Below the pieces are notes generated by a model. The model searched no databases. It worked only from the letters and a program-made list of their open reading frames with translations, and was not told the DNA's origin. This document shows, one piece after another, positions 5,225 to 23,341 of a stretch of DNA of 64,000 nt (positions are counted from its first letter, which is position 1; each line of letters begins with the position of its first letter). Made by a program: the position numbers and the translations under genes. The stretch is from Prochlorococcus sp. AG-402-C22 (GTDB lineage: Bacteria > Cyanobacteriota > Cyanobacteriia > PCC-6307 > Cyanobiaceae), in assembly GCA_003279535.1 (NCBI GenBank), contig QCHO01000003.1, forward strand, positions 1 to 64,000, written 5' to 3'.

Positions 5225-7441
5225 TTATGTTAACTCTAAATCAATTTGATATTTAAGAATATCAACTTTAATGATTTTTACTTCTATTTCATCTCCAACT
5301 TTATATGACTTCTTGGATTTTCTTCCAATCAATAAATTTTGTTTTGATCTATATTCGTACCAATCATTATTAAGGGTACTGACATGAACAAGACCTTCCA
5401 AATTTAGTTCTGTTATTTCAACAAAAAAACCATAACTTTGCACTGACAAAATAAAACCACTATATGAATTACCTAATAATTTTTCTGCCTTTCGTACTTT
5501 TTTTAAACTTAAAATATTTGATTTATATTGGATAACTTTATTTTTATATTCATTAACTTTATCCATTATAAATTCATTAAATATTAAATCTATATTTTTT
5601 GAAATTGATGAATTAAATATATCCCAATTTACTTTCTCCCATGAATTGCTCTCCATTATATTTATATCATTTGTATTATTTTTCTTTGATTTCTTTCCAT
5701 TTATTATCATATTAAAAATACAGTACTGATTCATAAGATTTGTGAAGTCATATCCGGGCAATGTCCAAGGAGAAGTAAATAATTCTTCTGATTCATCATT
5801 TTCTGAATTTTTAGATATCAGGCTTAATTCATTTTCTTTAAATTCATTAATTAATAGTTTATGTAAGATTCTCTTTTTATCGTCATCGCAAAATTTAATT
5901 ATTTGACTTAATGTTAAATTACCATCTTCATTTAGCTCTAAATCATTGCCAAGAAATTCCGAATATTTGATCATTTCATTTAAATTTATATAGTCTAATC
6001 CCTTTAAAATGTATCCTGCACTTTTTAATCCGTATTGAATTGAGTGTTTGAACCATATTAAATTCCCCTCATCAAGTATTGGTGAAAGGTATGTTTGGCA
6101 ATCATCTTTTTTTAATGGCTCAAAATATCCTTTTGAATATTCAGCAGGGTTATGAATAAAAAATTCATCTAATGATTTTATTTTATTTAGAGGAGTCGGG
6201 ATTTCAACTTTGCCTTCTAAGAGATGTCTTTGTCTAAATGATGTTGAAATTTCCAATATTTTATCTAGATCTTCTATATATTCTTTAATAGGTTTTAGTA
6301 TTCGGGATGTAATTCTAGTCTTACTTTTTCTTGATAAAAGTGCGTCAGTATAATCATTGCCAACAATAAGAGAACATCTTACAAAAGTAAGGTGAAATGA
6401 CCAGTCTGTAATTTCGTTATCGCTATTCAAATGAATGCATATACTTATTGCTTCATTCTTTTCTCCTAAATTAAATTCAGAAGCATTTATTATTTCATCA
6501 CTAATGTAATTTTGCCAATCATTCAATAAAGGGAATGATTCAAAGCTATTAAAGAACATTTCTAAGGATTTTTTACTATTTAGTTCTACTCTTTCTGCAA
6601 TATTATTTGTGTGTAACCATAATTTAGAACATTGATTCTTTTCTAGCTCTATTTGAATCATTGGAAGAATTGGAGAATTATCCGAATTCCAGCTTTTGAT
6701 CAAATAAGAGTTTTTATCTGATAAGTCTATTCTTTCCCTTTTTTCTATCTTCTTAGTTTCAATAACATTATTGTTTGACTTGATGATATTGCTTTTAGAT
6801 AAAACAAAATCAGTATCAAATTCCTCATTATTATTCAAATGTAATTCTTTTATCACATGGCCTAATCCTTCCTCCTGACCTATAGGGAACCTCTCAATTT
6901 CAACTTTTACTATATTTTTCTTTTCTGGTTTGAAGGTGTACTTTTTATCCTCTTTTGGAAGTTTTATTTTAGAAAGAATTCTATCATCGATAGGAATGGC
7001 GTATACAACATTGTTTATTATTTCAACTTTAGATAGAAGTATTTTATTTGATCTTTCTAGAATACAATCAACTATTCCCTCTGGCGATCTTCTTCTGTAA
7101 CCTTCTTTTATAATTCTTACTAATACTTTATCTCCATTCCAGGCATAGTTAAGTAGATTTTCTTTAATATAAATATCTTCTTTATTTTTTTCTCTTACGG
7201 CAAAGCAATAACCTTTGCTACTGCACCTTATTTTTGCGACAATATGATCGCTGTCTTTTATGTAGATATATTCATTATCTTTATTTTTATTAATTATCTC
7301 AAGTTTCTCTAGAGCTGTTAAAGCGATATTTAGTTTATCTTTATCGGATTTTTTTGTTATTTTTAAAGATCTACATAATTTTTTATATTCTAACCCTTCT
7401 GACTGATTCAAATTATCAATTATTGAAGATGTTGTGAACAT
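5225..7441 (-). CDS. RNase II/R-family protein with eroded RNB active site
   Basis: 738 residues with the domain order of RNase R: an N-terminal helix-turn-helix-like region (~5-50), a cold-shock-like OB segment (~65-130, 'GYCFAVREKNKEDIYI'), a large central RNB-like region (~215-620) and a C-terminal S1 domain (~658-738, 'GFFVEITELNLEGLVHVS'). The catalytic signatures are missing. The place where the family has an Asp-rich loop ending in DDA reads 'SWNSDNSPILPMIQIEL' ahead of 'LWLHTNN'. The later 'TSPxRRYxDL' motif reads 'TSPWTLPGYDF' (~556-566), so both arginines are gone. I infer an RNA-binding protein without exonuclease activity. The ORF is intact and long, so it is probably under selection. 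A second RNB gene with an intact core lies at 22157-23341. Confidence 0.75.
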   Translation of the reverse strand: MFTTSSIIDNLNQSEGLEYKKLCRSLKITKKSDKDKLNIALTALEKLEIINKNKDNEYIYIKDSDHIVAKIRCSSKGYCFAVREKNKEDIYIKENLLNYAWNGDKVLVRIIKEGYRRRSPEGIVDCILERSNKILLSKVEIINNVVYAIPIDDRILSKIKLPKEDKKYTFKPEKKNIVKVEIERFPIGQEEGLGHVIKELHLNNNEEFDTDFVLSKSNIIKSNNNVIETKKIEKRERIDLSDKNSYLIKSWNSDNSPILPMIQIELEKNQCSKLWLHTNNIAERVELNSKKSLEMFFNSFESFPLLNDWQNYISDEIINASEFNLGEKNEAISICIHLNSDNEITDWSFHLTFVRCSLIVGNDYTDALLSRKSKTRITSRILKPIKEYIEDLDKILEISTSFRQRHLLEGKVEIPTPLNKIKSLDEFFIHNPAEYSKGYFEPLKKDDCQTYLSPILDEGNLIWFKHSIQYGLKSAGYILKGLDYINLNEMIKYSEFLGNDLELNEDGNLTLSQIIKFCDDDKKRILHKLLINEFKENELSLISKNSENDESEELFTSPWTLPGYDFTNLMNQYCIFNMIINGKKSKKNNTNDINIMESNSWEKVNWDIFNSSISKNIDLIFNEFIMDKVNEYKNKVIQYKSNILSLKKVRKAEKLLGNSYSGFILSVQSYGFFVEITELNLEGLVHVSTLNNDWYEYRSKQNLLIGRKSKKSYKVGDEIEVKIIKVDILKYQIDLELT

Positions 7442-7512: not shown

Positions 7513-7824
7513 CTAATTATTTTTTTTGTCTTCTTTTTCTTCTTTGTCAATAACGAATGAATTAATAAAAAGCCTGCTACCAATAATTAAAAAAGTAATG
7601 GAAGCAATTGATTTAAGAACAATCTCTGGTAAAAAACTGGATATAGAACCACCTGTTAAAGCACCTAGTAAACTCGCAAAAACGAGTGCTGAAGAAGAAC
7701 CTAAAAAAACAGCAAATGGTTTATTTGAAGTTCCACTTATAGTTAAAGTAGCTAGTTGAGTCTTGTCACCTAATTCAGCTATAAAAACGGTAAAAAATGT
7801 TGATAGTAATAAACTTAAAACCAT
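7513..7824 (-). CDS. UPF0016/GDT1-family half-transporter (second of a pair)
   Basis: 103 residues with the hallmark motif 'AELGDKTQLATL' (E-x-G-D-[KR]-[TS]) at about 16-27 and three hydrophobic segments, which equals one half of a GDT1/UPF0016 transporter. Family members move Mn2+ or Ca2+; in the cyanobacterium Synechocystis the two-domain homologue Mnx exports manganese from the cytoplasm. Here each half is its own gene. This one starts at the base right after the stop codon of the upstream half, so the two are translated from one message and probably form a heterodimer. Manganese as substrate is inferred from the family. Confidence 0.8.
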   Translation of the reverse strand: MVLSLLLSTFFTVFIAELGDKTQLATLTISGTSNKPFAVFLGSSSALVFASLLGALTGGSISSFLPEIVLKSIASITFLIIGSRLFINSFVIDKEEKEDKKNN

Positions 7825-8151
7825 TTATAAATAATTTTTAAAAGTATCATAAGCTAAAAATACACTTATTAATATCATTAAAATTCCAGTAAATAATGCA
7901 AATTTGCTTGGTGAAATTTTTTTTGACAACCATTTTCCAATAAGAACTCCTACTACACTAGAGCTTATCAAAGCTAGAGAACTCCCAAGAAAAACAATTA
8001 TTGGCTTCCCTGATTCAGCAGAAAGCATTAATGTAGCTATCTGAGTTTTATCACCAAGTTCTGCAATAAATATGGTCGTAAAAGTTGTAATGAATATAGA
8101 TAAGAAACTTTTTTCTATATTGTCCTCTTTTTTTTCTAATTTACTATTCAT
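7825..8151 (-). CDS. UPF0016/GDT1-family half-transporter (first of a pair)
   Basis: 108 residues with the signature 'AELGDKTQIATL' at about 30-41 and three predicted membrane helices. A short charged N-terminus ('NSKLEKKEDNIEKS') precedes the first helix. It is the partner of the adjacent 103-residue half, with no bases between the genes. Its own start overlaps the stop of the upstream CxxCxxCC gene by 4 bp (ATGA), so three genes are translationally coupled. The likely role is export of manganese or another divalent cation, by family resemblance to cyanobacterial Mnx. Confidence 0.8.
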   Translation of the reverse strand: MNSKLEKKEDNIEKSFLSIFITTFTTIFIAELGDKTQIATLMLSAESGKPIIVFLGSSLALISSSVVGVLIGKWLSKKISPSKFALFTGILMILISVFLAYDTFKNYL

Positions 8152-8495
8152 TTTCCGGAGACTGCCATTTTAAAACTTTTCATCTCTTTACTTTTATTTC
8201 CATAATTTGATGAAATATGTTGTTTGCAACAATCTATAAGAAATTTGTCACCAGATTTTAAATATCCTTGAAATGCAGTTGAAAATTCAGTTACTCGACA
8301 AAAATGAGGTCTTGTTTCGTAAATTAAGCATTTTTTATTTTTTCTGTCCAGATTTTTACACCAACCGTCCTTAGCCGTCATTGAATTGATTAAAGTAATA
8401 TCTTGATCATTAAGTTTGTCAGCCAGATCAATTCTTTCGTTCAAGTTGAATTTACAACAAGCTCCACAATTTTCTATACATGTCCATGATTTCAT
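8148..8495 (-). CDS. YkgJ-family CxxCxxCC zinc/iron-binding protein
   Basis: 115 residues with an N-terminal cysteine cluster 'CIENCGACCKFNL', the CxxCxxCC signature of the YkgJ/UPF0153 family, followed by 'CLIYETRPHFCRVTEF' with two more conserved cysteines and a late 'DCCKQHI'. The cluster is thought to hold a zinc or iron ion. No enzyme function is established. It begins the apparent operon with the two UPF0016 genes, and a metal-related role for the whole unit would make sense. That link is inference from the 4-bp overlap. Confidence 0.8.
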   Translation of the reverse strand: MKSWTCIENCGACCKFNLNERIDLADKLNDQDITLINSMTAKDGWCKNLDRKNKKCLIYETRPHFCRVTEFSTAFQGYLKSGDKFLIDCCKQHISSNYGNKSKEMKSFKMAVSGK

Positions 8496-22156: not shown

Positions 22157-23341
22157 TTAATAAATAAACTCTAATAGATTATTATCATTTATATTATATT
22201 TTACGTTATAAATTTTATTACTATATATTTCTATTGAAACAAATAGAGTAATAAGAATTTCGAGTGAATGCTCTGGAAAAAAAACTAACGCAATATTTCT
22301 TTTATGATTAATCCACTTAACAAATATTATTTTATAAAAAGGTTTATTTTCATTATTGAAAAATAAAGATAAATATTTAAATCTATCATTTTTATAGATA
22401 TTGTTATTCTCTAGTTGTCGTTTTTTAGAATACTCAATAATTTGAGTCATAGAATTTTTGGATATAAGTTCAAAATTATTTAATTTATTATATACCTGTC
22501 TTTGTATAATTAAATCTAGGTATCTTCTTAATGGTGAAGTACATTGTACATACATTTTAAGACCTAGAGACTCATGATTATTCGGTTTTATTGTTATATA
22601 ACTTCGCCCCATATATTGTTTAAGTAGTATATATTTTATCTGACTATCTCTATATTTATTTAATATTTCATGTGGATTACAATTAATTTTTTGAACTCTA
22701 TATGCAACCGCAAGATTATTTTTATTTAAAAATAAACTTGTTACATAACCCATTAATATCATTGCTTCAGCAATAATAATTTGTGCTAATGTTTTTTCAA
22801 CTTTAGTTATTAAAATTTTATCTTTATTTAACTTAACTTTACTATTTGGACTTTCAAAGATTATTGCTCCTTGTTTTTTTCTATATTCAATACTTTTTTC
22901 TAATAAATTTTTAATTTCAACTAATTCAATTTCTTCTTTTGGCTCAAGATCTATTATTTCATTTGCATCTTCATATGTTAATTGATATTTTGGTTTTATA
23001 ATAGCTTCAATTATTTCATAATGATTTATAGAGCCATCTTCGTTGAACTCTATTGATGCACTAATAGTTTTTGAAATTTTATTTTGAGATAGATTAGCCT
23101 CCTGAACTATTTCTAAAGGTAGCATTGCTGTATATTGATCAGTCAAATATAAACTGCTATTTCTTCTTTTTGCATCAAGATCGATATTCGAATCTTGTAA
23201 AAATAACCTACATGGATTACTAATATGTATCCATAATTTTTTTATATCTCCCTCTTTTATTTCTAAAGAGATAGCATCATCAACTTCATGTGGATCTTCT
23301 GAGTCAATAATATATGTTTTTAAACTAGTTAAATCTTTCAA
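22157..23341 (-). CDS. Minimal RNB-family exoribonuclease (catalytic core only)
   Basis: 394 residues from a TTG start. It opens only 12 residues before the catalytic Asp loop 'IIDSEDPHEVDDAIS' (D13, D16, D21, D22) and also keeps 'TSPLRRYLDLIIQRQVY' (from T268). Both signatures of RNase II/R are therefore intact. There is no N-terminal cold-shock or HTH domain: an in-frame stop and rpsR lie within ~50 bp upstream. The C-terminal ~80 residues are short and not a clear S1 domain. Family enzymes degrade RNA 3' to 5'. This form would depend on other proteins for RNA capture, possibly the RNB-like protein at 5225-7441 (inference). Confidence 0.85.
   Translation of the reverse strand: MKDLTSLKTYIIDSEDPHEVDDAISLEIKEGDIKKLWIHISNPCRLFLQDSNIDLDAKRRNSSLYLTDQYTAMLPLEIVQEANLSQNKISKTISASIEFNEDGSINHYEIIEAIIKPKYQLTYEDANEIIDLEPKEEIELVEIKNLLEKSIEYRKKQGAIIFESPNSKVKLNKDKILITKVEKTLAQIIIAEAMILMGYVTSLFLNKNNLAVAYRVQKINCNPHEILNKYRDSQIKYILLKQYMGRSYITIKPNNHESLGLKMYVQCTSPLRRYLDLIIQRQVYNKLNNFELISKNSMTQIIEYSKKRQLENNNIYKNDRFKYLSLFFNNENKPFYKIIFVKWINHKRNIALVFFPEHSLEILITLFVSIEIYSNKIYNVKYNINDNNLLEFIY

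Follow-up and report, generated by a model that had tools for sequence, protein, structure and literature searches.

A gene for an RNase II/R-family protein that has kept its RNA-binding parts and lost its active site lies at 5225..7441 on the minus strand of the window analysed here, which is the whole 64,000-nucleotide stretch (positions 1 to 64,000 of contig QCHO01000003.1) from Prochlorococcus sp. AG-402-C22. An earlier note on this DNA had described it as an RNase R-like protein with the RNA-binding domains kept and the catalytic core lost.

Gene and domain structure

The open reading frame consists of 738 codons with an ATG start and no internal stop, the clean frame that the earlier note had reported, and ORF call and family matches define it as a gene for a 738-aa RNase II/R-family pseudonuclease. 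The cold-shock-like and S1 segments described there were recovered by Pfam, with OB_RNB at residues 70-124 (8e-17), S1 at residues 657-735 and matches to CSD2. The RNB match at residues 237-540 was weak, 50.5 bits compared with 191 in the intact paralog of the same genome. Against the NCBIfam RNase R model TIGR02063 the protein scored 164.8 bits (E 2.8e-48), below the curated cut-off of 597.85.

From Pfam and conservation, the CSD1/OB_RNB domain covers residues 63-131 (7049..7255, minus strand) and is the most conserved domain of the family. The CSD2 region follows at residues 132-216 (6794..7048, minus strand); these limits, drawn from conservation and alignment, are approximate and were placed by hand, because the best Pfam CSD2 stretch (85-130) overlies CSD1. 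The degenerate RNB domain was set at residues 237-600 (5642..6733, minus strand) by Pfam and profile-profile alignment, and the S1 domain (5237..5473, minus strand) by Pfam and conservation. An AlphaFold model built with 19 close Prochlorococcus homologs was of low confidence (pLDDT 39.5, pTM 0.25).

Identity as Zam

Zam, which descends from an RNA-degrading enzyme, occurs in nearly all cyanobacteria. It is a cyanobacterial clade of RNB proteins near RNase R, with conserved OB domains and a degenerate active site (PMC9145284, 2022). The window protein has the Zam domain order, OB/CSD1-CSD2-RNB-S1, and a degenerate RNB active site, and its genome encodes a separate Rnb alongside it. On a quick tree made without bootstrap, the window family was nested inside Zam as sister to family f11 (SH-aLRT 97) and near f19. 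Alignment and tree therefore make the gene orthologous to zam of Synechocystis (sll1910). Both Zam and the loss of its active site are already known in kind (PMC9145284); none of the papers searched described zam in Prochlorococcus.

In Synechococcus PCC 7002, Zam has two redox-active cysteines in CSD1, C73 and C79, that are essential in vivo (PMC9145284). Exactly the same two positions are cysteines in the window protein, Cys73 (7223..7225, minus strand) and Cys79 (7205..7207, minus strand), within the motif RCSSKGYCF, and alignment pairs them with the published residues. Both were present in 65 of the 70 family Zam and in 96 of 101 other Zam, 161/171 sampled Zam in all, while the first of the two was missing in 52/52 Rnb sequences.

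Five family members (L010, L102, L091, L094 and L096, family f1) carry one cysteine each, the other being Ser. In these five a C73-C79 disulfide is impossible, and therefore the disulfide is not universal. In family f16, three Zam homologs (L197, L202, L211) have neither of the CSD1 redox cysteines, and their Asp loop is shortened.

Loss of the catalytic residues

Alignment with RNase R and RNase II places K, P, L and P at the positions of E. coli RNase R D272, D278, D280 and D281, so the earlier reading that the DDA signature is gone from the Asp loop holds for all four metal-binding positions. The arginine of the RRY motif is replaced by Y, and the channel tyrosines of RNase II, Y253 and Y313, correspond to P and N. 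Two independently built profile pairs agreed on this register (hhalign probability 100% and 99.8%). None of the four Asp-loop acids and the RRY arginine that mark an active RNase R was found. On this alignment, the residues on which two-metal RNA hydrolysis depends are missing from the window protein, and we infer that it is catalytically inactive.

The former Asp loop, residues 251-260 (WNSDNSPILP; 6662..6691, minus strand), has the family motif W.....P.LP in place of the four acids. The former TSPxRRYxDL motif, residues 556-572 (TSPWTLPGYDFTNLMNQ; 5726..5776, minus strand), has lost its arginine and follows the family motif PW..P..xY....NQ; both replacements were located by alignment, conservation and profiles. 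The earlier note had paired the second signature with 'TSPWTLPGYDF'. It was right that the signature is lost, but its register was off by three residues, and the true column pairing is 'FTSPIRRYPDL' with 'WTLPGYDFTNL'. The TSP seen there is not the TSP of the motif, as relatives with APWCCP..HY.D..NQ show.

Could the RNB domain still support nuclease activity with acids recruited from other parts of it? The RNB fold remains recognisable by profile, and the family has several conserved acidic columns, such as E283 (98% Glu) and, at 98-100% acidic, positions 426 and 489. These columns, however, are scattered and do not gather at the Asp loop; among the RNB-domain acids only D239 and E283 reach 90% as a single residue, and the catalytic arginine and both channel tyrosines are gone as well. 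Even with a related protein, Alr1240, reported as active (PMC10989914), we consider a rebuilt site very improbable.

Conservation and selection in the family

The zam gene was found in 134/151 genomes of the GTDB family, including 93/94 of those at least 90% complete; the window genome itself is 1.17 Mb and 81% complete. Relatives in named public contigs were nearly all from Prochlorococcus. Among the 70 family Zam sampled, 66 had none of the four acids and four had one acid, the Asp pair was kept in 0/70, and the RRY-position arginine was gone in 69/70, one protein retaining it. W251, P257, L259, P260, P558, W559, N571 and Q572 were each present in at least 90% of the family. The replacements are common to all relatives in the family, so they are beyond chance.

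In diverse family Zam, mean column identity was 0.70 in CSD1 and 0.67 in S1 but 0.38 in RNB, and the motifs RCSSKGxCF and RRRSPEG were near-invariant. Rnb shows the opposite pattern, 0.54 in RNB against 0.37-0.41. The dN/dS of the window zam against ten Prochlorococcus orthologs was 0.11-0.18 overall, and by part 0.02-0.13 in the N-terminal/CSD1 part, 0.05-0.16 in S1 and 0.12-0.27 in RNB. Homolog L040, whose frame is broken, was left out of the analysis. Purifying selection maintains the gene and acts most strongly on the OB/cold-shock and S1 domains; the RNB domain has no catalytic residues left, yet it is not drifting freely. Conservation analysis, one of the checks that the earlier note had proposed, thus gave catalytic positions replaced family-wide and RNA-binding domains strongly conserved, and together with alignment and dN/dS it supports the picture of a lost core and kept RNA-binding domains. 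That zam is decaying and on the way to loss would fit the reduced genomes of this lineage and an RNB domain less conserved than that of the paralog, but with a clean frame, presence in nearly every near-complete family genome and such low dN/dS it can practically be dismissed.

Graded loss across cyanobacteria

In the wider sample all four acids were kept in 0/171 Zam compared with 52/52 Rnb paralogs, in agreement with the published work (PMC9145284). Outside the window family (n=101) the loss was less complete: the DD pair and arginine were both kept in 45/101, and 22 had three acids, mostly D-A-D-D. Under a model that allows acids to be lost but not regained, the tree calls for at least eight losses of the DD pair. 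This count comes from a quickly built tree in which 24 branches had weak support and the outgroup was not one clade; without the assumption, a two-state count comes down to three changes. Active-site loss is graded and probably repeated across cyanobacteria, and it is ancestral to the whole window family and widespread in the phylum. In genomes G237, G246 and G207 (93-99% complete) only Rnb was found, with no clear Zam.

Some Zam may still be enzymes, since Alr1240 of Anabaena, which is Zam according to PMC9145284, is reported in the review PMC10989914 to degrade unstructured RNA. New in the present analysis are the completeness of the loss in this marine lineage, its graded and probably repeated course across cyanobacteria, the motif that replaces the active site and is conserved in the family, and the reduction of the catalytic paralog to a bare RNB domain in Prochlorococcus-type genomes.

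Rnb paralog and neighboring genes

This paralog, rnb, lies at 22157..23341 on the minus strand and encodes a 394-aa bare RNB domain in which alignment and Pfam showed intact Asp-loop acids, RRY arginine and channel tyrosines. No RNB protein besides it and Zam was found in the window genome, which is 81% complete; RNase E is also encoded. Open frames of family Rnb were ~400-470 aa in Prochlorococcus-size genomes and ~676-737 aa in most larger genomes, and the one long Rnb scanned had an HTH/winged-helix region at its N-terminus. The order rpmG-rpsR-rnb-metG is conserved in relatives, and the rnb frame of L125 opens ~30 bases past rpsR. Simultaneous truncation of Rnb and inactivation of Zam was considered and rejected, because Zam is already inactive in members with full-length Rnb.

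Immediately upstream of zam, and like it on the minus strand (7513-8495), a tandem pair of half-size GDT1 cation-transporter genes is accompanied by a CxxCxxCC protein. The GDT1 pair has this position and strand throughout the family and the CxxCxxCC protein in most members. As a general cyanobacterial feature the linkage was rejected, with no GDT1 gene within ~1.5 kb of zam in the other families sampled.

Proposed function

We think it probable, with some reserve, that the window Zam is a redox-sensitive RNase R-like pseudonuclease that binds RNA and/or RNase E; its RNA binding, its contact with RNase E and its redox control are carried over from other cyanobacteria. The CSD and S1 domains would hold RNA and/or bind RNase E. 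A disulfide between Cys73 and Cys79, in the L12 loop of CSD1 that faces RNA, may couple Zam to the photosynthetic redox state, and Zam coupled in this way could tune mRNA turnover. The dead RNB domain would most likely be retained as a scaffold or binding surface, and exonucleolytic decay would be left to the Rnb paralog and other nucleases.

Deletion of Zam and mutation of its cysteines in PCC 7002 altered pigmentation and photosystem ratio (PMC9145284). Alr1240 binds to RNase E, whose cleavage it enhances (PMC9145284, PMC10989914). The earlier note had proposed repurposing as an RNA-binding or chaperone protein: RNA binding agrees with the published interpretation of the Zam clade (PMC9145284) and may extend to the window protein, and a chaperone role found no specific support.

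A purely protein-binding adaptor, for example an activator of RNase E that does not need RNA, must be weighed here. Purified PCC 7002 Zam, which was aggregation-prone, bound no Rnb substrate RNA (PMC9145284), OB and S1 folds bind proteins too, and Alr1240 is described as binding the RNase E catalytic region 1:1 and stimulating RNase E in vitro (PMC10989914). Against this, Zam is reported to conserve the residues of the CSD1 L12 loop that contact RNA (PMC9145284), and both motifs named above are near-invariant in the window family. We regard such an adaptor as unlikely, though it deserves some weight. A split enzyme in Prochlorococcus, with non-catalytic Zam delivering RNA in trans to the bare catalytic Rnb (or to RNase E) under redox control, is a very doubtful idea.

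For the redox-sensitive pseudonuclease that we favor, the most promising clues to function are the redox cysteines and RNase E. Prochlorococcus has no phycobilisomes. The Zam phenotypes were measured on phycocyanin (PMC9145284). It means that the downstream targets of Zam must differ in Prochlorococcus. Zam is kept in nearly all near-complete genomes of a streamlined phototroph family, including phycobilisome-free Prochlorococcus, and this retention points to a more general role, plausibly redox-linked RNA turnover.

Comparison with known systems

Zam is among the few bacterial pseudonucleases of the RNase II/R family to be described. The window protein resembles the Zam of Synechocystis (sll1910) and Synechococcus PCC 7002 (A1543) in domain order, RNase R-like ancestry, loss of Asp-loop acids, conserved CSD1 C73/C79, and OB domains more conserved than RNB (PMC9145284). 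It differs in the fuller loss in its family, usually with no acids, no arginine and no channel tyrosine, and in a family-specific replacement motif. Its host lineage also lacks phycobilisomes, where the reported phenotype was measured.

Compared with E. coli RNase R (rnr), fold and domain order are alike, but the window Zam has 0 catalytic residues and scores 165 bits against the cut-off of 598. Cyanobacterial Rnb (Synechocystis sll1290; 22157-23341 in the window) belongs to the same RNB superfamily and differs from Zam in keeping the catalytic residues and having no cysteine pair; Synechocystis Rnb is biochemically RNase II-like (PMC3293843, PMC10989914).

Another parallel is fungal Ssd1 of the Dis3L2 branch (PMC8934651, PMC8097288), an RNase II-family protein that lost its active site, conserved its cold-shock domains, acts as an RNA-binding protein and arose through repeated independent losses. 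The window Zam likewise combines a lost active site with cold-shock domains conserved under selection. Ssd1 differs in having arisen separately, out of Dis3L2 in eukaryotes, and in its known RNA targets, which are not known for Zam. The graded loss in Zam has a counterpart in the repeated losses of fungal Ssd1/Dis3L2 and offers a natural series for when a nuclease stops being one.
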